Part shown: piece by piece, positions 11,627 through 25,652 of the stretch | Layout: the number at the start of each line of letters is the position of its first letter | Numbering within the stretch: the stretch's first letter is position 1 | Assembly: GCA_011389735.1 (NCBI GenBank) | Contig: JAABTS010000035.1 | Location: forward strand, 1 to 40,029 | DNA: 40,029 nt | Reading direction: 5' to 3' | From: Desulfobacteraceae bacterium | GTDB taxonomy: Bacteria; Desulfobacterota; Desulfobacteria; Desulfobacterales; JAABTS01 | Program-made: the position numbers and the translations under genes | Notes under the pieces: model-generated | Database searches by the model: none | What the model saw: the letters and a program-made list of their open reading frames with translations, nothing else | What the model was told of the DNA's origin: nothing

Positions 11627-11664
11627 ATTCCGTCATCACATCGCCCTTTTTGGAACCGGTTGAA

Positions 11665-13113
11665 ATGCCAAACAAAACTCATCAAATCTGGAATATCAAT
11701 TTTTATAATATGATCGTGGAGTCCATGTCGGACGGCGTATTCACTCTGGATACGAACGGGCAAATCACTTCCTGGAATCCTTCCATGGAGCGGATCAGCG
11801 GTTATACGGCGGAAGAAGCCTTGGGAAAAACCTGTCAGATCCTCCAATGCAGCCGCTGTTTTGGACGGGAGTGCCCCGCCGGCATCTACATGTGCAAAAT
11901 TTTGGAGAAGGGAGATTCGGAAAGTAAGGAATGTAATATACGCCACAAGAATGGACATGATGTGCCCGTGATCAAGAACGCCAACGTCGTTCGAGACGAA
12001 AAAGGCCATATCATAGGCGTTGTTGAAACCGTAACCGATCTGACTGAATTGAATCAGACCCGGAAGAAGGCCGAAGAGGCCGCCAGGCGTCTCGGTGAAA
12101 TCAGCCGGCTGGATAATATTATCGGCAAAAGTCCCGCCATGCGCCAGGTGTTCGAAGAAATCAAGGCCGCCGCCGCCAGCGAAGCCAGCATACTGATTCA
12201 TGGTGAAAGCGGCTCCGGAAAGGAACTTGTGGCCTCCGCGATTCATTTTAAAGGGGAACGTAAGGATGGCCCCCTGGTGACGGTAAATTGCAGCGCCTTG
12301 TCGGAAACATTGCTTGAAACTGAACTTTTCGGCCATGTAAAAGGAGCGTTCACCGGAGCGCTCCGAGATCGTACGGGCCGTTTTGAAGAAGCTTCGGGCG
12401 GCACGATTTTCCTGGATGAAATCGGCGAACTGAGTTCCTTTATCCAGACGAAATTGCTTCGAGTTTTACAGGAGCGGGTGATTGAACGAGTTGGAGAATC
12501 GAAAAGGCGAAAAGTCGATATCCGTATCATCAGCGCCACGCATCGGGATCTGTACGCCAGAGTCAGGGAAGGCGCCTTTCGCGAAGATCTCTACTACCGG
12601 CTCAAGGTGTTTCCAATCCGCCTCCCGCCGCTTCGCGAACGGCGTGAAGATATTCCCCTGCTGACGGATCATTTCATAAACGGCATGAATCAGAAAACAG
12701 GCAAACGCATCAAAGGGATGCTGAGATCAGCTATGAAAGCCGTGATGGATTATTCATGGCCGGGAAATGTCCGCGAACTGGAGAACGCCGTCGAACACGC
12801 TTTCGTATTGTGCAACCGGGATTATATCAACACTGGCGATCTTCCCATTGAAATCCGGCAGCCTCAAAGGAGGCCGGCCAATCCTGAGACTTCCGGGCGT
12901 ATGTCCCAGGTCCGTTTCGAGAGAAAAGCGTTGAACCGGGAGGCCTTGATCGAACTGCTTGAATCCTGCGGCTGGAACAAGGCGGAAGCCGCCCGAAGAA
13001 CCGGCCGAAGCCGGACTGCGATATGGAAGTATATGAAAAAATACGGCATCCCTTTAAACCGCCCTCAAGACAGTGTTTTTTCAGGGCCGGATAAAGAGCG
13101 CTCATCCATTTGA
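11665..13113 (+). CDS. PAS-containing sigma-54-dependent transcriptional activator
   Basis: A 482-residue bacterial enhancer-binding protein. The start at 11665 is chosen over the upstream open frame because the PAS domain begins just after MPNKTHQ. Order: PAS (about 15-128) with an unusual cysteine set (57, 62, 65, 70, 77 and 90, in CQILQCSRCFGRECPAG), AAA+ domain with Walker A GESGSGKE (180-187), an intact GAFTGA loop (227-232), Walker B IFLDEIGE, arginine-finger region, and a Fis-type helix-turn-helix at the end (NKAEAARRTGRSRTAIWKYM). It opens sigma-54 promoters after sensing through PAS. The cysteines suggest redox, metal or Fe-S sensing, which is inferred. The likely local target is the candidate sigma-54 promoter at 13400, with twin palindromes at 13250 as its binding sites. 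Confidence 0.92.
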   Translation: MPNKTHQIWNINFYNMIVESMSDGVFTLDTNGQITSWNPSMERISGYTAEEALGKTCQILQCSRCFGRECPAGIYMCKILEKGDSESKECNIRHKNGHDVPVIKNANVVRDEKGHIIGVVETVTDLTELNQTRKKAEEAARRLGEISRLDNIIGKSPAMRQVFEEIKAAAASEASILIHGESGSGKELVASAIHFKGERKDGPLVTVNCSALSETLLETELFGHVKGAFTGALRDRTGRFEEASGGTIFLDEIGELSSFIQTKLLRVLQERVIERVGESKRRKVDIRIISATHRDLYARVREGAFREDLYYRLKVFPIRLPPLRERREDIPLLTDHFINGMNQKTGKRIKGMLRSAMKAVMDYSWPGNVRELENAVEHAFVLCNRDYINTGDLPIEIRQPQRRPANPETSGRMSQVRFERKALNREALIELLESCGWNKAEAARRTGRSRTAIWKYMKKYGIPLNRPQDSVFSGPDKERSSI

Positions 13114-13549: not shown

Positions 13550-13864
13550 ATGGCTCAAATGTCAAAATTCATGGTGGTTCACCACAATCCGGGTATCGAT
13601 TGCAATGTTGTCCAGGCGAACTGGCGCAAACTGGCCAAGGTTGAATCGGCCACCTGGGTGCGAACCTATTTTAACGAAAATGAAGGCTGGCGTTACTGTG
13701 CCTGGCTGGCGCCGGGGAAAGCTGAGCTGGAAAAAATTTTTTCCGAAATGGATGTAAATTTTGAATCCATTGTGGAAGTCGTGGAAACCGTTCCCGATCT
13801 CTGGGGAGAGAAATGGGATGAACATCTGAAACAGGATGCGACGGCTGATAATCTGGGAGTGTGA
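13550..13864 (+). CDS. DUF4242-like small protein
   Basis: A 104-residue soluble protein with a strong ribosome-binding site (AAAGGAGG). The fold looks like a small ferredoxin-like alpha/beta domain: KFMVVHHNPG, then a helix and EGWRYCAWLAPGKAELEKIF, and a last strand SIVEVVETVPDLWGEKW. This resembles the DUF4242 / SCO4226 group, some members of which bind nickel, but I assign it only by pattern. It lies 88 bp before a thioredoxin gene behind the candidate sigma-54 promoter, so the two probably form a small stress or redox unit controlled by the upstream activator. No enzymatic residues can be claimed; His11-His12 and Cys19 could bind a metal. Confidence 0.7.
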   Translation: MAQMSKFMVVHHNPGIDCNVVQANWRKLAKVESATWVRTYFNENEGWRYCAWLAPGKAELEKIFSEMDVNFESIVEVVETVPDLWGEKWDEHLKQDATADNLGV

Positions 13865-13951
13865 TTTGAACTCCGGCGGGCGGATATCAGGGAAACGGCC
13901 CTTTTTCGCCCGCTGGTGTTTGAGACGATGTTTGCGATAAGGAGACTCGAA

Positions 13952-14266
13952 ATGAAGGAAATATTATCGGATTCGGAATTCGAAACCACGGTGGGACGGG
14001 GAGTGTCTCTGGTGGATTTTAACGCGCCCTGGTGCGCTCCGTGCCGTTTGCAGGATCCCATACTTGTAAAACTTGCGGAGCAATATGAAGGCCGGGCCAT
14101 TTTCGCGAAAATGAATGTCGATAAAAACGGAGACACGGCCATGAAGCTCGGCATACAAAGTATTCCGACAATGATTATCTTCAAGGATGGAAAAGAAATC
14201 GCCCGTTTGATCGGAGTTCAACCTGAAGATATCTTGAAAAATTCGATTGACGGAATCCTTGACTGA
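13952..14266 (+). CDS. Thioredoxin
   Basis: A 104-residue thioredoxin-fold disulfide reductase of the cytoplasm. The start at 13952 is chosen because AAGGAGA lies 7 nt before it; an upstream in-frame ATG at 13916 would add 12 unlikely residues. The active site is WCAPC (about 27-31; canonical is WCGPC), followed by DPILVKLAEQYEGRAIFAKMNVDKN, the cis-proline motif IQSIPTMIIFKDG (about 68-80), and the final helix. Gly-to-Ala in the CxxC loop can shift redox potential slightly. It is the second gene after the DUF4242-like protein. It ends 30 bp from the convergent small gene at 14297. The trx symbol is left blank since the genome may encode several. Confidence 0.93.
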   Translation: MKEILSDSEFETTVGRGVSLVDFNAPWCAPCRLQDPILVKLAEQYEGRAIFAKMNVDKNGDTAMKLGIQSIPTMIIFKDGKEIARLIGVQPEDILKNSIDGILD

Positions 14267-14296: not shown

Positions 14297-14518
14297 CTAC
14301 GAACCGGGTTCGTTCAGTATTTTCAGACAATCTTGAGGAAGCCGCAGCGTGCCCTTGCCGACCAGGCTGACCTCCACCAGCGCGTTCGGGTCGTTGACGG
14401 AGGTGTCCGGATCGACGATAATACCATGACAGCCGATATATTCGTTCATATAGTCTTCCCACATATCTTCCGACGACCGCTGAAACACTTCGATTCGTTG
14501 CCCTCTGCGAAAGTTCAT
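14297..14518 (-). CDS. Small SH3-like hypothetical protein, last gene of the reductase operon
   Basis: A 73-residue soluble protein with an ideal ribosome-binding site (AAGGAGA, 7 nt before ATG). It starts 9 nt after the stop of the flavoprotein gene, so it is almost certainly co-transcribed. The pattern (FRRGQRIEVFQ at the start, GCHGIIVDPDTSVNDPNALVEVSL in the middle, and TLRLPQDCLKIL at the end) suggests a small beta-barrel such as an SH3-like domain, with one Cys. I do not recognise a named family. It could be an assembly or accessory factor for the oxidoreductase, judged by position only. Its last codons include a short inverted repeat CGAACCGGGTTCG that may help end transcription. Confidence 0.75.
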   Translation of the reverse strand: MNFRRGQRIEVFQRSSEDMWEDYMNEYIGCHGIIVDPDTSVNDPNALVEVSLVGKGTLRLPQDCLKILNEPGS

Positions 14519-14527
14519 ATATTCTCC

Positions 14528-16693
14528 TTATCTTTGAAGCATGATATCGGAAGCGATATCCGCCGCTTTTTTACGCTGGCAAACATCGCAAAGATGTTGT
14601 TTGAATTTGGGGTTTCCCGTAGACTCAATCCGCCTGCGAACATAGTCGAGATACGCGGTTGTTCCGAGCATCTTGCCACACCCTTCGCAGAACACCAGTT
14701 TCCCTCGATTGAGAACGGTTCCACACAGCGTAAGAATACATTCCGTATCCGTGTAATGGATTTGCATAGCCTGGTTCGGGCAGTGATTGGCGCATGAACC
14801 GCACAGGATACATTTATCCCGCGTGGTGCGGAAATCAGTTTTTACCGGATGGTCGAAATCAAAATAGCCCAACTGTAAAGCGTCCAATTTCATCATGTCC
14901 CGGCATACGGATACGCATTCGCCGCATCGCCGGCAGATATCGCATCGAAGACACCGGCGAGCCTCTTCCCGTACCGCGTTTTCAGGATAGCCGAGTTCCA
15001 CCTGCTGGAACGTGGTTCGGCGGCGGTCGATATTTAAAACCGGCATTTCCGGTCGCTTGAGCGACATTTTGGTCGCCGCCGGGACTTCGATGTTTTCCAC
15101 ACGGGCCCGCCGGACCGGGACCGGCGGCATCGAGGGTTGAGGGATACCCATGAGATAGCGGTCGATGGCCTGTGCGGCCCGTTTCCCGCCGCCGATGGCT
15201 TCGATGACCGTCGCCGGTCCAGTCACCGCATCCCCGGCCGCGAAGACGCCCGGCAGCGATGTTTCCATGCTTACCGTATTCACGTGGATCGTGTTTCGTC
15301 TGGACCAGTTCATGTCCTTCAGTCCGACCATACAATCCCTGTCCACCTGCTGGCCGATAGCGGCGATCACCGCATCCGCTTCGATTACATACTCGCTCCC
15401 ATCGATCGGAACCGGTCTCATCCGCTGTCCGTCCCCAACCGGCTCTAATTTAGCCCGCAGGCATTTAAGCCCGGATGTCCGGCCCGCCTCGCCTGTAATT
15501 TCCACTGGAATGGCCAGGAAAGAAAAATGGATTCCTTCTTCCTCGGCCTGTTCGACTTCTTCTTCATCGGCGGGCATTTCCTTATGAGTCCGGCGATAGG
15601 CGAGCGTCACTTCGGCGCATCCCAGACGCAAACAGGTACGGGCCGAATCGATAGCCACGTTGCCGCCGCCGACCACCACAACCTTTCCGCCCGGCCGCCG
15701 GTGTTCGCCCAGCGCCACACGCCGCAAAAAATCGACGGCTTCAATTGCTCCGTATTCGGATTCGCCCTGGATTCCGAGTTTATAGGCGCTGTGCGCCCCG
15801 ATTGCAACAAAGAAAGCTGCATACCCGTCTTGTTTCAGTTGCTCGAACGTGACGTCGGATCCAAAACGAGTGTTAAACCTAAATTCAACGCCCAGGTCTT
15901 CGAGCATGGCGGTTTCCCGGTCAATCACCTCGGCGGGAAGCCGGTATCGAGGAATTCCAACGCGAAGCATTCCGCCGGCCGCCGGAAGTGATTCAATGAC
16001 GGTCACCCCGTAACCCTTGACTGACAGATAATATGCGCAGCTCAATCCGCCCGGCCCCGCCCCGATAACGCATACCTTCTTTCCTTTGTCCGGCTCCCTT
16101 GGCGGATTGACGTATCTGCCGTCCGACATGGCTCTTTCGGCCGCAAACGCTTTCAGGAATTTGATTGACACCGGCTTGTCGATACGGCCTCGGACACACA
16201 TGAATTCGCAGGGACGGGTGCATACCAAACCGCACACCCAGGGGAAAGGATTGTCCTGCCGGATGACCTCGATCGCTTCCGCATCCCGTCCCATGCCGAT
16301 TAGGGTCACATATGAGGGGATATCGATTCCGGCCGGGCACGCCATCTGGCAGGGAGCCGGCGCCAGTTTGACGCAGTCTCCGGTGGCGCAGTTCCTTGTT
16401 TTTACATGGCTGATGAACACTTCGCGGCGCTCGTCCAACGTTTTCCGGATACGCCGGGCCAGGGGCGAAGCCTCTGGATCCGATATCCGTTCGGCGAGTT
16501 CTTCTTGAAGCTTATCCAGCATCGGTATATGATCCGGCCCGGCGCTTCCCCAGGCGATATCTCTGGCCAGATCGCGAATTTCCTCCACAATCCGCCGGGA
16601 TCGGGGATTTTTCATACAACCGGGTTGAAGAACGTTGTTAAGCTCCAGAACCATTTCATTGACCGGACAATTATTTTCTCTCATATCAGGCAT
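14528..16693 (-). CDS. NAD(P)H-dependent Fe-S flavoprotein, GltD/NfnB-like, with extra N- and C-terminal domains
   Basis: A 721-residue cytoplasmic electron-transfer subunit. Residues about 10-108 resemble the C-terminal Fe-S region of NuoF-type proteins (pattern LDKLQEELAERISD, then EVFISHVKTRNCATGDC) but lack the ESCGKC cysteines. Next is a GltD-type 4Fe-4S domain (Cys115, 119, 154, 158, 162, 166), the FAD motif VIGAGPGG (209-216), and an NAD(P) motif VVVGGGNVAIDSA (about 340). Near 580-640 are two ferredoxin-like clusters (CLRCDICRRCGECVSVC and CILCGSCANHC), then a Cys-rich tail (CEGCGKM, CDVCQRKK) that may bind zinc or another cluster. It probably passes electrons between NAD(P)H and the 4Fe-4S and molybdopterin subunits encoded upstream. 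The direction and coenzyme are not shown by sequence. Confidence 0.88.
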   Translation of the reverse strand: MPDMRENNCPVNEMVLELNNVLQPGCMKNPRSRRIVEEIRDLARDIAWGSAGPDHIPMLDKLQEELAERISDPEASPLARRIRKTLDERREVFISHVKTRNCATGDCVKLAPAPCQMACPAGIDIPSYVTLIGMGRDAEAIEVIRQDNPFPWVCGLVCTRPCEFMCVRGRIDKPVSIKFLKAFAAERAMSDGRYVNPPREPDKGKKVCVIGAGPGGLSCAYYLSVKGYGVTVIESLPAAGGMLRVGIPRYRLPAEVIDRETAMLEDLGVEFRFNTRFGSDVTFEQLKQDGYAAFFVAIGAHSAYKLGIQGESEYGAIEAVDFLRRVALGEHRRPGGKVVVVGGGNVAIDSARTCLRLGCAEVTLAYRRTHKEMPADEEEVEQAEEEGIHFSFLAIPVEITGEAGRTSGLKCLRAKLEPVGDGQRMRPVPIDGSEYVIEADAVIAAIGQQVDRDCMVGLKDMNWSRRNTIHVNTVSMETSLPGVFAAGDAVTGPATVIEAIGGGKRAAQAIDRYLMGIPQPSMPPVPVRRARVENIEVPAATKMSLKRPEMPVLNIDRRRTTFQQVELGYPENAVREEARRCLRCDICRRCGECVSVCRDMMKLDALQLGYFDFDHPVKTDFRTTRDKCILCGSCANHCPNQAMQIHYTDTECILTLCGTVLNRGKLVFCEGCGKMLGTTAYLDYVRRRIESTGNPKFKQHLCDVCQRKKAADIASDIMLQR

Positions 16694-16716
16694 CTATCCT
16701 TATTCCCAAGACATCC

Positions 16717-16734
16717 TATTCCGGAACCGGAATA
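16717..16734. promoter_or_regulatory. Perfect inverted repeat upstream of the flavoprotein gene
   Basis: TATTCCGG-AA-CCGGAATA, 8-bp perfect arms with a 2-bp centre, 24 bp before the flavoprotein start. The phrase GGAACCGGAAT also appears upstream of the molybdopterin gene near 19828. Could be an operator for internal control or an RNA hairpin; function unproven. Confidence 0.4.
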
Positions 16735-16859
16735 AAAGTCAAGGAAGGCGAAAAGTTAAATATTACGCAGGCGGTCGCAAATGCCGCCGGCGGCTTCAAG
16801 GGGGCGGGTTCAGGGGCGGATTAGAACCGGAACTATGAAAAAGTTTTCACCCTGCACCC

Positions 16860-17366
16860 TCAACCCTCGATCAACGCTGTTTTTTTTACCCATTGCTCCC
16901 TTTTTCCGGATGAAATTTGTTCAGCTCGATCAAACGTCAGGCATTGGGTAAGACATATGGTGACGCAGGCCGGTTTCAGCCCGGAGTCGATACGGTCCAT
17001 GCAGAAATCACACTTTTCCACCTTCCGGGTTTCGGGATTCCATTGCGGCGCGCCCCAGGGACAGGCGGAAATACAGCTTTTGCATCCCACGCAATCTGCC
17101 TGGACAATATACACGATTCCGTCTTTTTCCCGTTTTCGCATGGCCCCGGTGGGGCAGGCGTTGACACACCAGGGGGTGTCGCAATGATGGCAATTCATGA
17201 ACACGTATGCCGCTCTGGGCTTTCCGTCAATCATTTTCGGGCCCACATGAACGATCTGACAAAGCCTGGGGCCAACCGGCAATGATTTGTTGCTCTTGCA
17301 CTGAATTTCGCATGAATGGCATCCAATGCATCTTTCCTGGTCCTGGATCATACAATATATACTCAT
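16860..17366 (-). CDS. 4Fe-4S electron-transfer subunit, DmsB/PhsB-like
   Basis: A 168-residue ferredoxin-type subunit that carries electrons between the molybdopterin enzyme and its partner. Four cysteine groups are visible: CIGCHSCEIQC (about 14-24), CHHCDTPWCVNACP (about 59-72), CVGCKSCISACPWG (about 92-105), and CDFCMDRI with later CVTIC (about 120-140), as in DmsB, PhsB and NrfC proteins that hold four clusters. The start has a strong GGAGG site. There is no Tat or Sec signal, so it is cytoplasmic like its catalytic partner. It lies between the catalytic and flavoprotein genes. The 201-bp gap to the catalytic gene is mostly a family F insertion. No membrane anchor subunit is encoded nearby. 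Confidence 0.92.
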   Translation of the reverse strand: MSIYCMIQDQERCIGCHSCEIQCKSNKSLPVGPRLCQIVHVGPKMIDGKPRAAYVFMNCHHCDTPWCVNACPTGAMRKREKDGIVYIVQADCVGCKSCISACPWGAPQWNPETRKVEKCDFCMDRIDSGLKPACVTICLTQCLTFDRAEQISSGKREQWVKKTALIEG

Positions 17367-17417
17367 TATTCCTCCAAGTCAGTTCCGGGGGTTCGATCAA
17401 ATCCCAATCAAAAATTC

Positions 17418-17558
17418 GGCATCCTTCATTTCTTGTTTACAGTTACATCAAAATCGGGATCGGGATCGGGATCGGGATCGTAATAATTCGATACCGATGC
17501 CGATTTCGATACCGATTTGGGAAGTGTAAACTATTTATCAGCATTTATGAAAGACGCC
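17418..17558. mobile_element. Family F MITE-like element inside the reductase operon
   Basis: A 141-bp element with 12-bp terminal inverted repeats (GGCATCCTTCAT and ATGAAAGACGCC, 10 of 12 paired). Inside are four GGGATC units and a block of GATACCGAT/GATTTCGAT units. It is flanked by AAAATTC on both sides (17411-17417 and 17560-17566), consistent with a 7-8 bp target duplication. It sits between the molybdopterin gene stop (17568) and the 4Fe-4S gene start. It differs from the 25.5-kb copy by exactly two hexamers plus a few substitutions. Confidence 0.85.
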
Positions 17559-17567
17559 GAAAATTCC

Positions 17568-19697
17568 TTATATCCGTTTCACACGGACAAACGTGTCGTG
17601 AAGCGCGGGACTGCCGCCGATCTTGTCATATAAATTTTCCTGCAGGAGCGCGTCCGAAAGCCCTTTTTTGAACGAACGGCCCGCGTATTCCACGTCGTGC
17701 CCGAAACCGTGCAGCATGAAAACCGCATCCGGATGAATTGAATCCGTCACTTTCGCCTCGATTTCTCCGGAACCGGCTTTGGACGACACTTCAACCCGGT
17801 CTCCGTCCGATATGCCCAGCTCCGCGGCTCGGATTTCATTGATCCAGAGCACGTTTTTCGATACGACTTCATTTAGATATTGGTTGTTCTGAGTGGAAAT
17901 ATGCGTATGCAGGGCGATTCGTCCCACTGTGAGGCGAAACTGGTCCCCGGACGGTTTCGGAACGGGTTCATATTCAGGAAATGACGGATACCCGGCCTCT
18001 TCGAGCAAGTTGGATTGAAATTCCACTTTGCCGGACGCTGTTTTAAATTTAAGCTCCATTTCGTGATCCCACCATATCGGGTTCTGGCAATAGGATACAA
18101 ACCCTTTGGTTTCAAAATCCCGCCTGGTGAACCCGGTCCCGTCGAGCTGCCAGGGGACCAGCTCGTCCATACTGTCATAGGGAAAATAATCTCCAGCTCC
18201 CAGGCGCGCGGCCAGGAGTTTTAATATGACCGCGCTTTCGAGAGTGTCATATCGGGGCGGGACGGCCTGATTGCGCAGAAACATCTGAGGCTTCAATCCA
18301 TTGGCCTGTTGAACGCTGTCGGTGCGTTCCAGATAAATGGATTCAGGCAGAATCACGTCCGCATGCCAGGCGGTGTCGCTGTAATTGATCTCGATGGCGG
18401 CGATAAAGTCCAGCTTTTCAAACGCCCTGAGCGTCAGGTTGGTGTCGGGAACGGACATCAGCGGTTCGAACCGGTTGACGATCAGCGCTTTAATCGGATA
18501 CGGATCTTCATCGAGGATCGCGCGAGGAAGCATCTGCGCCACGCCGTGAGCCGTATCGGGAAGCGGAAAGTCAGGGGTTCCGACTTTATCGAATCGGATT
18601 TTATCGACTTTTGGGACGTGAGCCTGTTCGGTGAGCTTCCTGGCTGCTTTACGGCCGACTTCGCCGGGACCTTTCTTGAAAAACACGCCGCCCCTGGTCT
18701 CGATGCTCCCCATCAGAGCGTTCAGAATCAGGATCGATCTGCGCAGGTAAATTTCGTTCTGATGATGGGCTCCCCGATACCCGAAATGAAAGATGACCGC
18801 AGGTTTATCTCTTCCCGCCGCCCTGGCCAGCTCCACAATCCGTGCGGCGGGAATTCCGGTTTCCGCCTCAGCCCATTCGGGCGTTAAAGCTCGAACAAAT
18901 TCCCGCAGTTCATCGAATCCATGAACCCATTTTTTCACAAATGCGGCGTCATACAATTTTTCCTCGATGATGACATGCATCAATGCGTAATTGAGCGCCA
19001 GATCGGTTCCAGGCCGGATCATCCAGTACCTGTGCGCCCTGGTCGCCGTGACCGTGACACGCGGATCGATGTAGGTCAGCTCACATCCTTTCTCGAGGGC
19101 GGCGGCAAGATTCCGCACCTCTTTCACGGCGATGGATTCGAACATATTCCGGCCATATAAAATGATCTGTCTGGCTTCCGGATAATGCATACTCATCTGT
19201 GCGTCCGTGTAGCCGAAAAGACTCCGGCACGCGGTATTGACCGATCCCTTGCAGAGGGCGTCATGGGTGTAATGATTCGGCGATCCGATGGCTCTCATGA
19301 ATGTCTTGCTGATATGCGTGTTGAGATTGGCTCTTTCACCAAAAGCCACGCTTTCGGGACCATATTGAGCGATGATTGCCTTGAGTTTTTCCGCCGTGTA
19401 ATCCAGAGCCTCTTCCCAGGTCGCTTTTCGCCATTGGCCGGAACCTCTCGGCCCCATGCGGATCATCGGCGCCTGCAACCGTTCGTTGTCGTTCAACAGC
19501 GCTATGCCGGCCGCTCCTCGCGGGCACAAAACACCGTCTATTCCGGCGACGTGCGGATTTCCCTGAACCCATGTCACCCGACCGTCCTTCGTGGACACCC
19601 GGATAGGGCATCTTACCGAACACATAAAACAAAGACTGTAAACTTCATTCTCCATTGTTTTCGAACTCTGATCGAATACTGGCGTCTCTTTTGTCAT
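17568..19697 (-). CDS. Molybdopterin oxidoreductase, thiosulfate/polysulfide reductase-like catalytic subunit
   Basis: A 709-residue DMSO-reductase-family enzyme. The N-terminal 4Fe-4S site is C23-x2-C26-x3-C30-x27-C58. The likely molybdenum ligand is Cys149 in THDALCKGSVN, which fits the Phs/Psr/Nap side of the family, not the Ser of DmsA or Asp of NarG. Later parts show LILNALMGSIETRGG, YSDTAWHADVILPESIYLER (about 450-470) and the C-terminal cofactor-binding barrel with NDLR-type NEIRAAELGISDGDRVEV. There is no Tat signal, so the enzyme is cytoplasmic, unlike classical periplasmic PhsA. With the 4Fe-4S and NAD(P)H flavoprotein genes downstream, it forms a soluble NAD(P)H-linked reductase, perhaps for polysulfide or thiosulfate. 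The TauE gene opposite supports a sulfur role. The substrate is inferred. Confidence 0.88.
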   Translation of the reverse strand: MTKETPVFDQSSKTMENEVYSLCFMCSVRCPIRVSTKDGRVTWVQGNPHVAGIDGVLCPRGAAGIALLNDNERLQAPMIRMGPRGSGQWRKATWEEALDYTAEKLKAIIAQYGPESVAFGERANLNTHISKTFMRAIGSPNHYTHDALCKGSVNTACRSLFGYTDAQMSMHYPEARQIILYGRNMFESIAVKEVRNLAAALEKGCELTYIDPRVTVTATRAHRYWMIRPGTDLALNYALMHVIIEEKLYDAAFVKKWVHGFDELREFVRALTPEWAEAETGIPAARIVELARAAGRDKPAVIFHFGYRGAHHQNEIYLRRSILILNALMGSIETRGGVFFKKGPGEVGRKAARKLTEQAHVPKVDKIRFDKVGTPDFPLPDTAHGVAQMLPRAILDEDPYPIKALIVNRFEPLMSVPDTNLTLRAFEKLDFIAAIEINYSDTAWHADVILPESIYLERTDSVQQANGLKPQMFLRNQAVPPRYDTLESAVILKLLAARLGAGDYFPYDSMDELVPWQLDGTGFTRRDFETKGFVSYCQNPIWWDHEMELKFKTASGKVEFQSNLLEEAGYPSFPEYEPVPKPSGDQFRLTVGRIALHTHISTQNNQYLNEVVSKNVLWINEIRAAELGISDGDRVEVSSKAGSGEIEAKVTDSIHPDAVFMLHGFGHDVEYAGRSFKKGLSDALLQENLYDKIGGSPALHDTFVRVKRI

Positions 19698-19775
19698 CCA
19701 TCCTACCTCGTTTATAATTGAAGACTAAAAATATTATCCCTCGATTGACTGGCGTTTGATTTCTGAAAAGATAGA

Positions 19776-19790
19776 GCAATAATCATACCA
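19776..19790 (-). promoter_or_regulatory. Candidate sigma-54 promoter for the reductase operon
   Basis: On the minus strand: TGGTAT-GATTA-TTGC. The GG and GC dinucleotides are present at the required 10-bp spacing, and two positions in the -24 box differ from TGGCAC by transitions. It lies 79 bp before the molybdopterin gene start, leaving a leader of about 65 nt. Confidence 0.5.
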
Positions 19791-19916
19791 TCGTTGATAT
19801 TAAAAAGACGGAACGCCCGTTCGCACGGAACCGGAATTATTCCCTTATAATTCAATTATTTTTTAACATCCTGGGCTTTTGCATGTTTTTGAGATTGAAA
19901 AAACCGCATGAAAACC

Positions 19917-19932
19917 GCAATAAATTTATTGC
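19917..19932. promoter_or_regulatory. Perfect 16-bp palindrome in the divergent control region
   Basis: GCAATAAATTTATTGC is fully symmetrical. It lies about 130 bp upstream of the reductase-side sigma-54 candidate and 237 bp upstream of the exporter-side promoter, both within enhancer range. A candidate site for the response regulator encoded at 23963-25360. Confidence 0.5.
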
Positions 19933-20119
19933 AGCTTTCAATATTTTTCTTGCACCTCGTTAACCTTTTGAAATAACAATTTAAATTCGATTTGACACCA
20001 ACAGGCGCCATATTTCTTTGGCGCCTCGTCCTGTTCGCGTATCCGGCTCCACTCGGATCGTTTGTCTGGCCCGGAATGGATAAAATTCAGCCTCATGATT
20101 GGTAACCCGCTAAACCGTG

Positions 20120-20135
20120 ACCGGCCCGGGCCGGT
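20120..20135. promoter_or_regulatory. Perfect 16-bp GC-rich palindrome near the exporter promoter
   Basis: ACCGGCCCGGGCCGGT is fully symmetrical and ends 33 bp before the -24 box. It could bind a regulator or form a hairpin. The GGCCCGGG core is shared with family A repeats, so it may also be a repeat relic. Confidence 0.4.
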
Positions 20136-20168
20136 TGAAATCCGAAAAAACGGCGGAGCATAATTCCG

Positions 20169-20183
20169 TGGCACAGGCTTTGC
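20169..20183 (+). promoter_or_regulatory. Sigma-54 promoter, consensus-perfect
   Basis: TGGCAC-AGGCT-TTGC followed by TTT matches the sigma-54 consensus at every conserved position. Transcription would begin near 20195, giving a leader of about 60 nt before the TauE-family gene. The sigma-54 response regulator encoded 3.8 kb downstream on the same strand is the likely activator. Confidence 0.85.
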
Positions 20184-20256
20184 TTTAAATTCGGGAGGAA
20201 ACCGGTTAGGGGATTTCAAGAGCCTTACGATTAACTTTAACGGAAAAGGAAAAACA

Positions 20257-21429
20257 ATGACGCTTAAATTCAAAACATGTGTGATCATTCTGATTATCGG
20301 AATTGTTGCGGTTTCGCCAGTGTTTACGACAGGCGGCGCCGATGCGCAAACCCTTGAAGAAGCCATCTCCCAGGCTCCGAAAGGATCGGGCGAAGGGAAA
20401 ATCGACCCATCGCAGCCGGCGGGGTATCTGGGAATCCCGGGAGCGCCTTCCCTGAATCTGATTATATGTTTTTTGTGGGCGGTCTGGGTCGGATGGATTT
20501 TTTCCACGGTGGGAGCGTTCGGTGGAATCATGGCCGGCATCGGGCATATCACGATTTTTGGAATCGGCCAGTACGCCGGCCAGTTTCGGGACACATCGCC
20601 GGCTCTGAACAAGCTGGTAACTGATTCTGTGCGAGTTTCGAACCAGTTTCTGGTGGGTACAAGCGCTTTGATTTCATCGATCAATTATTACCGTATGGGC
20701 AGACTGGTGTTGCCGCTTGGAATCGCCCTCGGGCTTGGATCGGTTATCGGCGCCTGGCTGGTGCCGGTTTTAACCGCCGGTAAAATTACGTTCAGCGCTT
20801 ATATCGGCTATTTCGGGATTTTCGTGCTGATTCTGGGGTGCTGGATGCTGTATGAAACAACGCCTCGCGGCCAGTCCGGAAAGCAAAAAGCGAAACAGGC
20901 GGCGGAAGCCTTTGAAGAAACCATGAAACGGCAGCGTTCCGGTGAATCGGTTGATACAAAAGATCTGGGGGTGAAAGTGCGAAAGCTGTCCCTGAGCCGG
21001 ATCGTGTTCACCTTTTATGGGGTCGAATTTTCGTTTAATCCGTTCTTTCCATTTATCGGCGGTCTCGTGATTGCATCGATCGCATCTTTTATCGGAGTCG
21101 GCGGCGGGTTCCTGCTGGTGCCTTTTTTGACAAGCGTATCCGGGCTGCCCATGTATCTGTCCGCCGGCACATCGGCCTTCGCGGTGATTATCAGCATGGG
21201 AACCAGTATCGTCAGCTATTTTTTCCAGGGCGTGACGGTGCATTGGCCTCTGATCGGCACGGAAATCGTTGGCGTTGTCGCCGGATCGTTTATCGGCCCC
21301 TACACATCCAAATATCTTTCAGATAAGTGGCTGAAACGGCTGTTTATTGTTCTGGCGTTTTATGTCGGATTCAATTATACCGCCAAAGGTTTTCTGGGCA
21401 AAAGCCTCTTACAGCTTTTGGGACTATAA
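20257..21429 (+). CDS. TauE/SafE-family anion exporter
   Basis: A 390-residue membrane protein of the sulfite/sulfoacetate/sulfonate exporter family. It begins with a cleavable-looking signal (hydrophobic residues 7-24, then GGADA), an acidic periplasmic stretch, and about eight membrane segments in two halves. GxxxGGIMAGIG (about 88-99) and the repeat IGVGGGFLLVPFL (about 284-296) are the paired family motifs. A charged cytoplasmic loop (about 205-245) separates the halves. The N-terminal signal and long loop are larger than in minimal TauE proteins. Placed behind a near-perfect sigma-54 promoter and divergent from the reductase operon, it may export sulfite or another oxyanion made or released by that enzyme. 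The substrate is inferred. Confidence 0.9.
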   Translation: MTLKFKTCVIILIIGIVAVSPVFTTGGADAQTLEEAISQAPKGSGEGKIDPSQPAGYLGIPGAPSLNLIICFLWAVWVGWIFSTVGAFGGIMAGIGHITIFGIGQYAGQFRDTSPALNKLVTDSVRVSNQFLVGTSALISSINYYRMGRLVLPLGIALGLGSVIGAWLVPVLTAGKITFSAYIGYFGIFVLILGCWMLYETTPRGQSGKQKAKQAAEAFEETMKRQRSGESVDTKDLGVKVRKLSLSRIVFTFYGVEFSFNPFFPFIGGLVIASIASFIGVGGGFLLVPFLTSVSGLPMYLSAGTSAFAVIISMGTSIVSYFFQGVTVHWPLIGTEIVGVVAGSFIGPYTSKYLSDKWLKRLFIVLAFYVGFNYTAKGFLGKSLLQLLGL

Positions 21430-21442
21430 ATATCAAGGTTCG

Positions 21443-21501
21443 CCGGCCGCTTTCGATACATTTCAGAACATGAACATATGATCCGTTAGGGGAGCGGCCG
21501 G
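21443..21501. terminator. Long-loop inverted repeat after the exporter gene
   Basis: CCGGCCGCT (21443-21451) pairs with AGCGGCCGG (21493-21501), a 9-bp GC-rich stem with a 41-nt loop, then TCATATTCT. It could attenuate transcription between the exporter and the next gene, or stabilise the upstream mRNA. There is no T-run. Confidence 0.35.
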
Positions 21502-21542
21502 TCATATTCTCCCCGGCGGCGACGCCTTGAATGAGGAAAATT

Positions 21543-22178
21543 ATGGAAACCATCTATCATTTTTATAAATGGGCGGACCCGTTTTTTATCGCCGCTTACC
21601 GTCTTTTTGAAAATCCGTTTCTTGGATTTTTGGCGGGAACGGCCTTTATCGCCCTGATTTGCATTATCGCCGGCGAAATGATGATGCGTATCGCACTGCT
21701 TTTCGCCGGAAACTATACGGACGCATTTTATCAAAAAGCCGTTCGTATGCATAACCTTTCCATCCGTGCGATTTTACGCAAAGACAGAGAAAGCTACCGT
21801 GCTTGTAACAAGGTCGCCAACGATGCGTTCGGGCGGTATTTTTTCGCTCAAGCCGCGCTGGGAGCGTCCGCTCTTTGGGCTGCGCCATTCGCGCTGGGAT
21901 GGATGGCGACTCGTTTTGAAGATGTCGAATTCCCGTTAGCCGGCGTTTCCATGCATGGACTAAAGATTGGATACGCCGGGATGTTCATTTTAATCTATGT
22001 ATTGATTCGGATTGGATTTGGCGAATTTAAAAGACGATTTCCGGGGCTTATGATATCCGCCCCTAAACGCGGGCTTTCTGACAGCGAACGTATGATCACC
22101 TGGCGTGATGTCGAAAAGCTCGGCGGTTACCCCGGCAGGGCCCCGTCATCCGGCAAGCCGGCCGGAGAATTCGGATAA
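21543..22178 (+). CDS. Hypothetical membrane protein with YidC/DUF106-like topology
   Basis: A 211-residue inner-membrane protein. The start at 21543 is preferred because GAGGAA within the earlier ATG frame (21531) serves as its ribosome-binding site. One membrane segment (about 22-52) is followed by a charged helical stretch, AILRKDRESYRACNKVANDAF (about 75-95), two further segments (about 98-120 and 138-160), and a polar tail. This order (one segment, cytoplasmic helix, two segments) resembles DUF106/EMC3-type members of the Oxa1/YidC superfamily, but identity is too low to judge by eye. It lies between the exporter and the three-part sensor genes on the same strand and may help insert or scaffold them. 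The function is not assigned. Confidence 0.75.
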   Translation: METIYHFYKWADPFFIAAYRLFENPFLGFLAGTAFIALICIIAGEMMMRIALLFAGNYTDAFYQKAVRMHNLSIRAILRKDRESYRACNKVANDAFGRYFFAQAALGASALWAAPFALGWMATRFEDVEFPLAGVSMHGLKIGYAGMFILIYVLIRIGFGEFKRRFPGLMISAPKRGLSDSERMITWRDVEKLGGYPGRAPSSGKPAGEFG

Positions 22179-22223
22179 ATATCCTCCATGTACGGATTAA
22201 CGTCCTTGAAATATTCGTCAGAA

Positions 22224-22237
22224 CGGTTTATAAACCG
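22224..22237. promoter_or_regulatory. Perfect 14-bp palindrome between membrane-protein genes
   Basis: CGGTTTATAAACCG lies in the 173-bp gap before the small membrane protein gene. It could be an operator for the sensor genes or a short hairpin. No promoter boxes were assigned around it. Confidence 0.35.
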
Positions 22238-22351
22238 CACAGGGGTTAAGAAAAAGATGTTGTTCACACCTTCAACCGGGAAGGCTGTCGATTGCGACCT
22301 CCTCCGAATCCGCTTTCTTAAACCCCCCTGGAATATTTAAGGAGTCCTGAA

Positions 22352-22816
22352 ATGCGTTTCATTTTACTGATGCTTTTATTCGCGGCGGACACGGCCTGGG
22401 CCACTCAGACTCATGGAGACCCGGAGGGCCTGTATGTGCATCAATCCTCCCATCTGTTTTTCATTTTTTCCATGGCGATACTGATTTACTGGCTCCGTTC
22501 CCGCAAGCTCGTCCGGGAAAGCGGTTGGAGGCGCATCCAATACGCATCGGCGTTGTTCATTGTGTGGAGTTTCGACGCTTTTCTTGCGCATTATCTGGAC
22601 GAACAAACGGATATTATCCGGGCTGTTTATGTGGATCTCTGGCGCATTCAGATTGAATCGGAATTTTCCATTCTTCCGGCGCTTTATTATTGCGTTAAAC
22701 TCGACCACCTCATTCTGGTTCCAGCCATTTTTATCTTTTATTCCGGGCTGAAACAACTTTCCGGGAAAGATCCCGCTGTTGAAACAGGCGCTGGAACTGG
22801 AGCCGCCAGGCCATGA
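22352..22816 (+). CDS. Small exported/membrane protein translationally coupled to the histidine kinase
   Basis: A 154-residue protein with a signal peptide (residues 1-17, ending AWA), a short periplasmic part with GDPEGLYVHQSSH, and three hydrophobic segments (about 35-52, 63-80, 112-130). AAGGAG precedes the ATG. Its stop overlaps the kinase ATG (ATGA), so the two are made together, probably as a sensor complex. The histidines near the membrane (His21, His30, His34 and His82 region) could bind a metal or heme. I do not recognise a named family. The arrangement fits an accessory signal-perception subunit for the kinase, inferred from coupling alone. Confidence 0.78.
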   Translation: MRFILLMLLFAADTAWATQTHGDPEGLYVHQSSHLFFIFSMAILIYWLRSRKLVRESGWRRIQYASALFIVWSFDAFLAHYLDEQTDIIRAVYVDLWRIQIESEFSILPALYYCVKLDHLILVPAIFIFYSGLKQLSGKDPAVETGAGTGAARP

Positions 22817-23994
22817 CCTGTTCAGCCCTTCCAATCTGGTTCGTTGACACGTTCGGCTCCGTTCTGATGATTATTTTTTCAATCTTGTGCATTCGCATTG
22901 CAAAAGAACTCCGGCGGCGGGACGAGGACAATCTCGTCTGGACCTATATTTTCTGGCTTTGCATCTGTTTCGCCGGTTTCGCCGTGTCCCGGTCCGCAGG
23001 CCATATCTTGAAGCAGATGCTTATCATATCCGGGAACAGCCCCGCGTGGGAAACGATCCGCCCCTACAGCGGAGCCGTCAATACGTTCCTGCTTATCATT
23101 GTAGCGGCGATCACCTTGTTTTTCGAGCGGGTGCAGCGAATTTACGCCGGCATCCTGAGCGACCGCCAGGAACTACGGTCGGCCCACGCCAGGCTTTTAA
23201 ACCTGAACGAAAATCTGGAACAGCGCGTGCTTGAACGTACAGAAGCGCTGGCGCAATCGGAAAAACAGATCGCCCAGGCCGACCGACTGGCGTCCATCGG
23301 CCAGTTGTCCTCGGGAATAGCCCATGAAATCAATAATCCGTTGGGCGTCATTTTGGGATACGCCCAGTTGCTGATCCGAAACGAATCCCCGGATAGCCAG
23401 CGCTATGAAGATTTAAAAACCATCGAAAGGCATGTAAAAAGCTGCAAAACCATTGTCGAGGATCTGTTGAATTTCGCCCGCAGCTCAAAGCCTAAAATCG
23501 AGGAAGGAGATATCCATTCCGCTATCGATGATGTTCTTTCCTTTGTGCAACACCAGTCAAAAAGCGAATCCTTGAAACTGGAAACGGACTATGATCCGAA
23601 AATTCCGAAACTTCGAATCGATGAAAAAAAAATCAAACAAGTGATTGTAAATTTGATCATGAACGCGATTCACGCGGTGAATCAGACCGGAACCATCTGG
23701 ATTTCAACCCGGTATGATCCGGATGCCGAACAGGTTTTGATCCGCGTTAAAGATACAGGGCATGGAATTCAAAGAAAAGATTTACCGCGCATTTTCGATC
23801 CGTTTTTCACCACCAAACCGACCGGCGAGGGCACCGGCCTGGGGCTGGCGGTGAGTTACGGCATCATCAAGAACCACGGCGGGGATATTACGGCGGCCGG
23901 TGAATCTGGAAACGGCGCTGAGTTCACTATCACTCTGCCGGCAGGTGATAGAGGATTGATCGATGAAGAAGAAAACCATTCTAATCGTCGATGA
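22813..23994 (+). CDS. Membrane sensor histidine kinase
   Basis: A 393-residue kinase. Three membrane segments (about 8-28, 43-62, 90-108) form the sensory part with little periplasmic sequence, so the signal is probably read in the membrane or from the coupled small protein. A coiled linker (about 115-160) leads to HisKA with phospho-acceptor His171 in GIAHEINNPLG, then HATPase with N-box NLIMNAIHAV, DTGHGI, FFTTKPTGEGTGLGL. Its last 32 bases overlap the response-regulator gene. This kinase class (NtrB/AtoS-like) usually controls sigma-54 regulators, which fits the adjacent gene and the sigma-54 promoter at 20169. The stimulus is unknown; a reductase substrate such as a sulfur compound is a reasonable guess. 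Confidence 0.93.
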   Translation: MTCSALPIWFVDTFGSVLMIIFSILCIRIAKELRRRDEDNLVWTYIFWLCICFAGFAVSRSAGHILKQMLIISGNSPAWETIRPYSGAVNTFLLIIVAAITLFFERVQRIYAGILSDRQELRSAHARLLNLNENLEQRVLERTEALAQSEKQIAQADRLASIGQLSSGIAHEINNPLGVILGYAQLLIRNESPDSQRYEDLKTIERHVKSCKTIVEDLLNFARSSKPKIEEGDIHSAIDDVLSFVQHQSKSESLKLETDYDPKIPKLRIDEKKIKQVIVNLIMNAIHAVNQTGTIWISTRYDPDAEQVLIRVKDTGHGIQRKDLPRIFDPFFTTKPTGEGTGLGLAVSYGIIKNHGGDITAAGESGNGAEFTITLPAGDRGLIDEEENHSNRR

Positions 23995-25360
23995 CGAACC
24001 CGATATGCTTCGTTTGCTTGAACGAACCTTGGGGCCTGATTTAAATTGCGATGTCCGGACGGCTGAATCCGGCGTAGAGGCCCTTAGGATCTTAGGGCGG
24101 GAAAATTTTGATCTGGTGCTGGCCGATATCAAGATGCCGGCGATGGACGGGCTGGAGCTGTTGGCGTTGATCAAGCGGGAGAACCCTGATCAAACGGTTG
24201 TGATGATGACCGGGCACGGTTCCATTGAAAGCGCCGTGACCGCGATGAAACACGGAGCGTATGATTTTATCACCAAACCTTTCGATCATGACGCGCTTCT
24301 GGTGAGACTCGAAAAAGCCCTGGAAAGAAGCGGTCTGTTGAGGGAAAACCAGAGACTCAAAGAAGCCTGCGAACTGGAAGACGCATTTAAACGGTTTGTG
24401 GGAAAAAGCCCGCCGATGAAACGAGTGTTCGATACGATCCGCATGGCCGCTGGAACCGATCTGACCGTGCTGATCACTGGTGAATCCGGGACGGGAAAGG
24501 AACTGGCGGCCCGGGCCGTCCATGAATTGAGCGGCCGGCGTAAGAAATCTTTTGTCGCCGTCAACTGCCCGACCGTTCCGGAACAAATCCTGGAAAGCGA
24601 ATTGTTTGGATACGCCAAAGGCGCGTTCACACACGCCACCCAAAAAAAAACGGGGCTGTTCCAGGAGGCTCACAACGGAACCCTCTTTCTGGACGAGATC
24701 GGAGATATCGGAACGGCGATCCAAACCAAATTGCTGCGGGCGATTCAGGAAAAAGAAATCAAGCCCCTGGGAGAAACGCGCACCCATAAGGTGGATGTCA
24801 GAATAGTGGCCTCCACCAATCAGGACTTGAAAGAAAAAATCAGGCGAGGCGAGTTTCGGGAAGATCTTTTTTACCGTCTGAACGTGATTCCGGTTCAACT
24901 CCCGCCGCTCCGGGAACGCCGCGAAGACATTCCGCTAATCGCCGGTTATTTGCTTGAAAAACATTGCAAAAAGATGAACCGGCCGTTGAAACGCCTGGCC
25001 GGGAAATTGCCGGGAGAATTAATGGCCAGGCCATGGGAAGGCAATGTTCGTGAGCTGGAAAATACCATTCTCCGGGGCATTCTTTACGCCCGGGGAGATG
25101 AAATTCAATCCGGGGATTTGATGGACCCGGAGCATCTCCCGGCGAGTGCGCCAGTAGCCGGTATTGACGTGTCTGGACTGGATTACCGTGACGCCAAGGA
25201 AAAAGTGCTTCGACATTTCAATCAAACCTACCTTGAAAACCAACTCTCCCTGACCTCCGGAAACATCACGCAAGCCGCACGGCGATGCGGCCTGGAACGT
25301 CAGGCTCTACAGCAAATCATGAAACGATATGGTGTTAAACCGGAACCATTTCGTTCTTGA
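23963..25360 (+). CDS. NtrC-type sigma-54 response regulator
   Basis: A 465-residue regulator: receiver (1-120) with Asp55 as the phosphorylation site and Lys105; AAA+ domain with Walker A GESGTGKE (173-180), Walker B TLFLDEIGD, and a Fis-type helix-turn-helix at the end (NITQAARRCGLERQALQQIM). The sigma-54-contacting loop reads GAFTHA (220-225) instead of GAFTGA; the essential Thr is kept. It overlaps the kinase gene by 32 bp and so is co-expressed. It most likely activates the consensus sigma-54 promoter of the exporter and perhaps that of the divergent reductase operon, through the palindromes in 19917-20135. A strong hairpin directly after its stop probably ends the transcript. Confidence 0.94.
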   Translation: MKKKTILIVDDEPDMLRLLERTLGPDLNCDVRTAESGVEALRILGRENFDLVLADIKMPAMDGLELLALIKRENPDQTVVMMTGHGSIESAVTAMKHGAYDFITKPFDHDALLVRLEKALERSGLLRENQRLKEACELEDAFKRFVGKSPPMKRVFDTIRMAAGTDLTVLITGESGTGKELAARAVHELSGRRKKSFVAVNCPTVPEQILESELFGYAKGAFTHATQKKTGLFQEAHNGTLFLDEIGDIGTAIQTKLLRAIQEKEIKPLGETRTHKVDVRIVASTNQDLKEKIRRGEFREDLFYRLNVIPVQLPPLRERREDIPLIAGYLLEKHCKKMNRPLKRLAGKLPGELMARPWEGNVRELENTILRGILYARGDEIQSGDLMDPEHLPASAPVAGIDVSGLDYRDAKEKVLRHFNQTYLENQLSLTSGNITQAARRCGLERQALQQIMKRYGVKPEPFRS

Positions 25361-25499: not shown

Positions 25500-25652
25500 G
25501 GCATCCTTCATTTCTTGTTTACAGTTTCATCAAAATCGGGATCGGGATCGGGATCGGGATCGGGATCGTAATAATTCGATACCGATACCGATGCCGATTT
25601 CGATACCGATTTGGGAAGTGTAAACTATTTATCGGCATTTATGAAAGATGCC
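25500..25652. mobile_element. Family F MITE-like element with perfect 8-bp target duplication
   Basis: A 153-bp element with ends GGCATCCTTCAT and ATGAAAGATGCC (11 of 12 paired). Inside are five GGGATC units and the GATACCGAT block. It is flanked by identical AAAATACT at 25492-25499 and 25653-25660, a clear target-site duplication. It has no coding capacity, so mobility would depend on a transposase elsewhere. Confidence 0.9.

Follow-up and report, generated by a model that had tools for sequence, protein, structure and literature searches.

A 40,029-nucleotide stretch of a Desulfobacteraceae genome (contig JAABTS010000035.1 of assembly GCA_011389735.1, positions 1 to 40,029; the window hereafter) contains two operons that diverge from a single control region, and the question raised by this locus is whether they form one system and which reaction that system serves. 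The minus-strand operon has the order mopB-fdxB-gltD-73aa (19697 to 14297) and encodes a molybdopterin oxidoreductase (MopB) with electron-transfer subunits; the plus-strand operon has the order tauE-215aa-154aa-HK-RR (20257 to 25360) and encodes a transporter, a histidine kinase (HK) and a response regulator (RR). As judged from promoter sequences and gene content, the two halves very probably constitute one conserved regulon that is common to many sulfate reducers. Our overall reading, to which we assign a probability of roughly 0.6, is a pathway-specific sigma-54 regulon combining a transporter with a cytoplasmic, NADPH-linked MopB reductase of a thiosulfate-class compound. Transporter, enzyme, sensor and an 18-bp site would thereby be tied together in many genomes, and two unnamed membrane protein families would gain a function. 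The original prediction had called the system possibly undescribed, and in the open-licence literature searched we found no description of the nine-gene set as a unit, of its palindrome or of its sensor.

Gene content of the two operons

All nine predicted genes are open reading frames, and Pfam and NCBIfam searches confirmed the assignments of MopB, the DmsB-like ferredoxin, the GltD-like flavoprotein, TauE, the kinase and the sigma-54 regulator. The features of the system are as follows.

14297 to 14518, minus strand: 73-residue protein, end gene of the enzyme operon (open reading frame; present in 46 of the 80 named loci introduced below)
14528 to 16693, minus strand: GltD/NfnB-like flavoprotein, 721 residues (Pfam/NCBIfam)
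16860 to 17366, minus strand: DmsB-like four-cluster ferredoxin subunit, FdxB (Fer4_11)
17568 to 19697, minus strand: MopB catalytic subunit, PhsA/PsrA type (Pfam/NCBIfam, PDB search, alignment)
19775 to 19790, minus strand: sigma-54 promoter of the enzyme operon, TGGTATGATTATTGCT (weight-matrix scan)
19916 to 19933, no strand: enhancer-like palindrome 1, CGCAATAAATTTATTGCA, putative regulator site (palindrome scan)
19937 to 19954, no strand: enhancer-like palindrome 2, TTCAATATTTTTCTTGCA, weaker (palindrome scan)
20169 to 20184, plus strand: sigma-54 promoter of the transport/sensor operon, TGGCACAGGCTTTGCT (weight-matrix scan)
20257 to 21429, plus strand: TauE/TSUP transporter, 390 residues (PF01925, 90.7 bits)
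21531 to 22178, plus strand: TauE partner, 215 residues, Oxa1/TMCO1-like topology (AlphaFold model, VIA, hhalign)
22352 to 22816, plus strand: 154-residue membrane protein (M154), sensor-like, with a signal-like N-terminus (alignment of 18 copies, model)
22813 to 23994, plus strand: membrane histidine kinase (HisKA, HATPase_c)
23963 to 25360, plus strand: NtrC-type sigma-54 response regulator (Response_reg, Sigma54_activat, HTH_8)

Gene ends overlap at the 154aa/HK and HK/RR junctions. The regulator has the full make-up of an NtrC-type protein, with a receiver, a sigma-54 AAA+ and a Fis-type helix-turn-helix domain. The 73-, 215- and 154-residue proteins gave no family match in Pfam or NCBIfam, and the description of the first as SH3-like gained no significant support (best PDB E value 0.047).

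Co-occurrence of the two halves

Conservation was followed in the named loci, the best 80 of 187 MopB relatives. The records nearest in MopB carry titles mostly of Desulfobacterales and kin, a few being labelled just Deltaproteobacteria, Proteobacteria or bacterium. Among these 80 loci the ferredoxin is found in 73, GltD in 66, the 73-residue protein in 46, TauE also in 46 (a close kind in 23 and a distant one, which has an additional stretch at the N-terminus, in the other 23), M154 in 25, and kinase and regulator in 33 each. When only the 37 loci flanked by 5 kb or more on each side are considered, TauE is present in 26 and accompanied by M154, HK or RR in 22. The MopB operon lies near TauE in Desulfosarcina widdelii, D. 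alkanivorans, Desulfatibacillum alkenivorans, Desulfacinum hydrothermale and Desulfoferrobacter suflitae, so that the substrate could be tested in named isolates by expression and, where genetics allow, by knock-out.

The association was also seen at the level of 58 related genomes, the window's own included, for which MopB was counted as type 1 or type 2 (see below) at 43% identity or more; genome G041, with its only MopB match at 35%, was excluded from the MopB list. MopB is present in 24 genomes, the TauE partner in 29 and both in 20. The partner thus occurs in 20 of 24 MopB genomes compared to 9 of 34 others (p=4e-5), M154 in 16 of 24 compared to 4 of 34, and the partner in all 20 M154 genomes compared to 9 of the 38 remaining ones (p=1e-8), although these Fisher p-values, like those given below for the same genomes, are too small because related genomes are not independent. 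The original prediction was to fall if orthologues of the halves never co-occurred; they do co-occur.

Surroundings of 20 kb were taken from 20 of the 65 genomes with a MopB match and from 19 of a set of 20 genomes, the twentieth being the window's own; 13 places were picked by hand. Loci L078 to L096 were chosen via the 215-residue protein, and counts including them therefore lean towards that protein. Of the 18 genomes whose MopB reaches 59% identity, 17 have a DsrA scoring over its cut-off, compared to 100 of 198 in the sample, and the lone genome without it is 80% complete. The host genome itself (6.5 Mb, 477 contigs) contains dsrA (622 bits). A plasmid search with TauE gave no match; with RR, the 12 matches listed were generic sigma-54 regulators at 42-45% identity, and one record outside this list fell in the 60-80% band.

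A shared sigma-54 control region

A sigma-54 scan of the 40 kb, with untrained weights set by hand from the consensus, returned four sites scoring at least 0.85, of which two are the near-perfect site at 20169 (+) and the good site at 19775 (-). Sites of this kind precede mopB in 57 of 102 upstream regions (6.2 expected), 14 of the 57 with exactly the TGGTATG-N2-TATTGCT of the window, and precede the close tauE in 35 of 55 (4.2 expected); both sets of regions hold near-duplicates (e.g. L058 and L106, L078 and L102) because the named and unnamed collections overlap. For the distant tauE a fixed search of 450 bases found a site in 3 of 26 regions (2.1 expected), and all 14 divergent regions of this kind carry a plus-strand site further upstream. 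The claim of a sigma-54 promoter on each side of one control region was thus borne out and extends to relatives; together with the genome-level co-occurrence, these conserved promoters support a single sigma-54-controlled system made of two facing operons.

Between the promoters a palindrome is conserved. In 39 divergent regions, de-duplicated by exact sequence, a search of every gapped palindrome with 4- or 5-base arms ranked TGCA-N10-TGCA (equal to TGCAA-N8-TTGCA) top; TGCAA-N8-TTGCA is present in 22 of the 39 and was absent from three shuffled sets. With one mismatch allowed, the longer form TGCAATA-N4-TATTGCA occurs in 29 of the 39, and 50 shuffles gave a mean of 1.04 and a maximum of 4 (all shuffling, that for the promoter counts above included, was by single letters within blocks of 50 or 60 bases). 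Copies are often paired 19 bases apart, with a third copy another 67-69 bases on. In the window, two copies are centred some 135-155 bases upstream of the promoter of mopB and 225-245 bases upstream of that of tauE, distances that NtrC-type enhancers usually show. We presume that the neighbouring RR binds them. Three symmetrical sites had been proposed for the window. Two of them, at 19916-19933 and 19937-19954, fit the conserved palindrome and are the two top-scoring places in the 40 kb (25.0 and 19.8), while no third site is apparent in the region (next best 8.6); three copies do occur in several relatives.

The perfect form of the palindrome is found once in the 6.5-Mb genome, at this locus. 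At up to two mismatches the genome has 70 forward matches compared to 61 for the reversed control, and six relatives have 32 compared to 16, part of the 32 being the locus itself. Pairs of TauE and partner outside the system have neither palindrome nor sigma-54 site in L083, L091 and L093, and no palindrome in L090.

A neighbourhood that arose by chance or was inherited within a lineage, with no functional link, would draw on the abundance of TSUP genes in sulfate reducers, of which more than 300 were counted in 44 genomes (PMC5840216). In the host genome there are six or seven (eight matches, seven over the cut-off, two probably one gene), and at this number in 6.5 Mb a chance TauE within about 20 kb should be rare. 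With shared palindromes, paired promoters, genome-level co-occurrence, and altered gene orders and enzyme swaps under one promoter pair (see below) also against it, we regard this explanation as most improbable.

An isolated sigma-54-like site (TGGCAAATCTTTTGCT, score 0.92) lies at 6767 (-) in the window, inside a 1272-residue minus-strand open reading frame near its start.

A probably cytoplasmic molybdoenzyme with an NADPH-type flavoprotein

MopB carries the domains PF00384, PF01568 and PF04879. Its best NCBIfam model is PhsA (NF012032; 586 bits), and its nearest solved structure over the whole length is 2vpw (residues 18-708, E 2e-103), deposited as thiosulfate reductase, which we take to be the Thermus polysulfide reductase. 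The predicted metal-ligating cysteine was confirmed as Cys149, presumably the molybdenum ligand, which is invariant in 18 aligned orthologues (the window's included) and aligns with the cysteine of 2vpw. Residue 150 is Lys in all 18. Formate dehydrogenases have a Cys or Sec ligand followed by His, and the aligned formate dehydrogenase 7bkb shows Cys-His; owing to Cys-Lys in place of Cys-His, we rejected an identity of MopB as formate dehydrogenase. In agreement with the predicted lack of a signal, none of 14 N-termini examined, including that of the window, has a twin-arginine translocation (Tat) motif, and many orthologues start near Met15 of the window's MopB. No membrane anchor of the NrfD/PsrC or SoeC type was recognised by Pfam or NCBIfam among the nine proteins. 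The ferredoxin subunit has, as predicted, Cys motifs for four clusters, read from its sequence, and scores 141 bits with TIGR02951 (cut-off 214).

In the flavoprotein an N-terminal Fer4_20 domain precedes the FAD and NAD(P)H domains, and an extra ferredoxin (Fer4) domain stands at the C-terminus. The NADPH-type motif YRR is present in 75 of 75 relatives (at least 50% identity and 80% coverage, near-duplicates included); in DsrL-2, YRR is taken as a mark of NADP(H) preference (PMC7596348). The missing Tat motif and the YRR flavoprotein support the proposal of a soluble, NAD(P)H-linked enzyme, and narrow it to the NADPH type. In some loci, genes like those for NuoE, NuoF and the NuoG N-terminus accompany or substitute GltD. 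Among the 80 named loci a NuoF-like and a NuoE-like protein are found in nine each, and a NuoG-N/HoxU-like ferredoxin in 44, mostly downstream, each family label resting on one scanned representative. Coupling to NAD(P)H therefore looks like the general rule for the MopB enzyme, whichever module provides it. From domain content and motifs we consider it likely that MopB-FdxB-GltD catalyses an NADPH-linked reduction in the cytoplasm.

The same modules raise the alternative that the complex is electron-bifurcating or a transhydrogenase, with MopB as its formate dehydrogenase or as a structural component. The best PDB matches of the flavoprotein are 9bov, 8oh5 and NfnA, the large chains of 9bov and 8oh5 also match the MopB query, in another part, and NuoE/F-like genes adjoin some loci. 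A 2023 study of Seep-SRB1g described a cytoplasmic fdhF2 beside nfnB as a predicted bifurcating enzyme (PMC10553843), which may or may not be the same gene pair. As to the bifurcating Nfn/Stn enzymes, the flavoprotein shows GltD homology; a NuoE/F-like gene is absent from the nine and present in some relatives. The Lys after the Cys ligand speaks against a formate dehydrogenase, and it is not obvious what a formate enzyme would need TauE, the sensor and the common control region for. We hold this alternative to be very unlikely.

A relative of MopB at L219 (6960-9047) sits on a very long branch, and its ligand region, inspected by eye, lacks Cys at the expected place, which suggests a non-catalytic copy or one with a new function.

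Exchange of the enzyme behind conserved promoters

The MopB subunit is not the same in all loci. L079 and L089 retain the other parts and have a second type of MopB (type 2, 43-44% identical), with CARN and DRGG motifs instead of CKGS and GER; L211 is alike, but has a TauE of the distant kind and an altered gene order. In L221, L222 and L081 transporter and regulators adjoin a 930-residue MopB fused to a Nitrate_red_del/TorD domain, with no GltD in view (the fusion was identified by a Pfam run on L221, to which the other two copies are 76 and 70% identical). The control regions of L221 and L222 retain TGGTATG-N2-TATTGCT on the enzyme side, TGGCATACAG[AC]TTGCT on the TauE side and, between the promoters, the palindrome at two mismatches and one, respectively. 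In L081 a sigma-54-like site, together with a perfect palindrome, precedes MopB. In a tree that took about every sixth sequence of the named set at 60% identity or more, type 1 MopB as one group was weakly supported (69/80).

Five genomes encode the TorD-fused MopB, and four of these are among the nine partner genomes without type 1 or type 2. Any of the enzymes is present in 24 of 29 partner genomes compared to 4 of 29 without partner (p=2e-7), or in 22 of 26 compared to 3 of 22 when only genomes at least 90% complete are counted. From these swaps, and from the absence of MopB at a kept control region (see below), sensing and transport seem to be the steadier part of the system.

Another oxyanion (arsenate, selenate or nitrate-like) might be detoxified or respired, or an organic compound converted. 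In favour of this, the PDB relatives of MopB that come next are acetylene hydratase and ArrA, and three loci employ a different MopB. The models of ArrA, YnfE, NasC and TtrA give MopB 75-195 bits, far under the PhsA score, and the enzyme is nearly restricted to dsrA genomes, so we regard such a substrate as unlikely.

Transporter, partner and putative sensor

TauE matches PF01925 over profile positions 2-236 of 237, well above the cut-off of 32.6 bits. Within the named loci selected by MopB, 40 of the 48 TauE genes are followed by a partner of either kind, and several of the eight without one lie at contig ends; in the other set, which consists mostly of loci chosen via the 215-residue protein, it is 33 of 35. 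Close and distant TauE have homologous partners (hhalign 93.6%, E 2e-7), which never occur together in one genome (20 and 9 of the 58, overlap 0, p=0.02).

A YidC topology had been claimed for the 215-residue protein. In the AlphaFold model (predicted local distance difference test, pLDDT, 90.3) a transmembrane helix runs into a long helical hairpin and two further transmembrane helices follow. Three transmembrane helices with a helical hairpin resemble the Oxa1 superfamily, to which TMCO1, EMC3, Get1 and YidC belong; no Foldseek match was found at E<=0.001. The top VIA-align row was 7tut_8, a chain of a multipass-translocon ribosome complex (Z 8.7, root-mean-square deviation 4.3, 141 aligned residues), and the eighth was 6w6l_6 from a TMCO1 translocon entry (Z 6.0). 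Both chains are presumably TMCO1, given the title of the second entry and equal ranges, though a Z of 8.7 is within reach of helical proteins by arrangement alone. We have moderate confidence in an Oxa1-type fold and regard the YidC topology as a reasonable prediction; the protein goes with TauE, and nothing points to a free insertase.

The small membrane protein of 154 residues is present as predicted, and we assign it to the kinase. His21, His30, His34, His80 and His119 are invariant in 18 aligned copies; the L221 copy, outside this alignment, lacks the first of the five. Its model (pLDDT 86.3) gave no Foldseek match at E<=0.001, and the VIA rows, a mixture of G-protein-coupled receptors and other helical proteins, were uninformative. 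We infer that it may serve as an extracytoplasmic sensing subunit of the kinase.

TSUP functions in sulfate reducers have been called not predictable (PMC5840216), and TauE pairs outside the system offered no clue to the substrate, as their neighbours vary by locus. We slightly favour uptake over export. Export is part of a reversed scheme, in which a cytoplasmic sulfite:NADP+ oxidoreductase in a SoeA-like role and TauE as sulfite/sulfate exporter would relieve sulfite stress. The TauE of C. necator has been proposed as a sulfite exporter (PMC3949148, PMC5840216), and the enzyme is nearly restricted to organisms with Dsr. Thermodynamically, sulfite oxidation with NADP+ would run downhill. Turning sulfite back to sulfate is wasteful in a sulfate reducer, and the nine proteins include no recognised anchor of the SoeC/NrfD type; we consider the reversed scheme improbable.

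Proposed function

In the reductive scheme that we prefer, the 154-residue protein and the kinase would sense a periplasmic signal, a metal or haem at the conserved histidines, and the kinase would phosphorylate the NtrC-type regulator, which may then bind the palindromes and fire both sigma-54 promoters. TauE and its Oxa1-like partner would move an anion across the inner membrane, MopB-FdxB-GltD would use NADPH electrons for its reduction on the cytoplasmic side, and the products would enter the Dsr pathway. The substrate is probably a sulfur compound, for which the basis is indirect: the PSR/PHS family of the enzyme, the TauE family and the near-restriction to dsrA genomes. A thiosulfate-class compound (thiosulfate, polysulfide or tetrathionate) is our tentative choice, at slightly less than even odds.

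Several results weigh against this scheme. The PhsA score of MopB stays below the cut-off of 694 bits. Ten of the 37 well-flanked loci have none of TauE, M154 and RR, and 9 of the 29 TauE-partner genomes lack type 1 and type 2 MopB, five of them the TorD-fused form as well. In one complete genome MopB is missing from a locus that retains the promoters, a perfect palindrome, FdxB, GltD and the 73-residue gene; the type 2 MopB of this genome lies elsewhere without such promoter or palindrome sites. In the 39 divergent regions the palindrome shows no significant link to the presence of RR or M154 in the locus (22 of 27 with, 7 of 12 without, p=0.23), some of the loci without RR ending at contig ends. 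Under standard conditions NADPH is also poorly suited to reduce thiosulfate. Going by textbook potentials, NADPH-driven thiosulfate reduction would become feasible in the cytoplasm, where DsrAB would maintain a low sulfite level; the periplasmic PhsABC has no comparable sulfite drain. In D. alaskensis a putative PhsAB had a small effect on thiosulfate fitness, with DsrAB regarded as the other reductase (PMC4215793).

A wider proposal, which we regard as doubtful, is that sensor, transporter and palindrome form a fixed cassette with an exchangeable enzyme, that reduction of the sulfur compound is wholly cytoplasmic and pulled by DsrAB through its removal of sulfite, and that a TSUP transporter needs an Oxa1-type subunit. 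Type 1, type 2 and TorD-fused MopB would all stand behind TGGTATG-N2-TATTGCT, and types 1 and 2 would be driven by NADPH. We know of no dedicated carrier-subunit role for the Oxa1 superfamily.

Comparison with known systems

With PhsABC/PsrABC the system shares a catalytic subunit of the same MopB family (2vpw over the whole length), the Cys ligand and a DmsB-like ferredoxin subunit. It differs in having no Tat motif, no recognised NrfD/PsrC anchor and an adjoining NADPH-type flavoprotein. Two system-bearing genomes encode PhsA-like paralogues elsewhere (L218 in G006, 35% identical, and L220 in G024, 32%); both show a Tat motif and form a separate branch of the tree with 100/100 support. In domain order the flavoprotein resembles DsrL, NfnB and GltD, with ferredoxin parts at both termini around the FAD and NAD(P)H domains and YRR as in DsrL-2, but unlike DsrL it is encoded with MopB and away from dsrAB: in the host genome dsrA is on contig C1 and the GltD-like gene on C262.

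The MOLY cluster of sulfur disproportionators likewise combines a MopB-type enzyme, a second subunit and a TorD/DmsD chaperone in Desulfobacterota; its enzymes are predicted to be extracellular, whereas here the Tat motif is missing and a transporter and two-component system are attached (PMC12998232). In D. vulgaris nine sigma-54 operons contain TSUP or PSE transporters, the substrates being unknown there too, and the main text of that report does not contain the word 'molybdopterin' (PMC4641369). A link to the D. vulgaris TSUP regulators DVU0110/DVUA0057 was set aside, as DVUA0057 is tied to PEP-CTERM/exopolysaccharide genes. Reports that treat TauE and PhsAB (PMC7117923) or Psr and molybdopterin enzymes (PMC12142623, PMC8780430) shed no further light on the system, and nothing relevant was found in PMC11887813.

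Neighbouring genes and repeats

Between mopB and fdxB the window holds an element outside the system:

17418 to 17558, no strand: repeat element (one of 40 genome places at E<=1.1e-44)

This palindromic repeat of about 140-150 bases resembles a miniature inverted-repeat transposable element and recurs after the regulator gene at 25500-25652. Its ends are GGCATCCTTCAT and ATGAAAGACGCC, and it contains an ATCGGG hexamer array of variable length. At least 40 places in the genome, the window's two included, match at E<=1.1e-44 (40 of 377 candidates were scored).

At 10598-13113 the gene of a bile-acid-symporter-type (SBF) transporter precedes that of a PAS sigma-54 regulator whose PAS segment is rich in Cys; relatives of this regulator (42-64%) share a locus with TauE or RR in L064, L067, L069, L071 and L222. 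A small SCO4226-like protein (nickel-responsive family) and a thioredoxin are encoded at 13550-14266, end to end with the 73-residue gene; among the 80 named loci a thioredoxin match was found in L171 only. Other neighbours recur in these 80 loci: a phosphoenolpyruvate-synthase-like protein (PPDK_N and PEP-utiliser domain, labelled from one scanned representative) lies beside the MopB operon in L130 (6483-9065) and eight more, a dual-specificity phosphatase is present in 8 and a lone receiver domain in 10. A CBS-domain protein of about 150 residues, of which one representative was scanned, is found in L169 (8879-9328) and 15 more, usually just after the enzyme operon.

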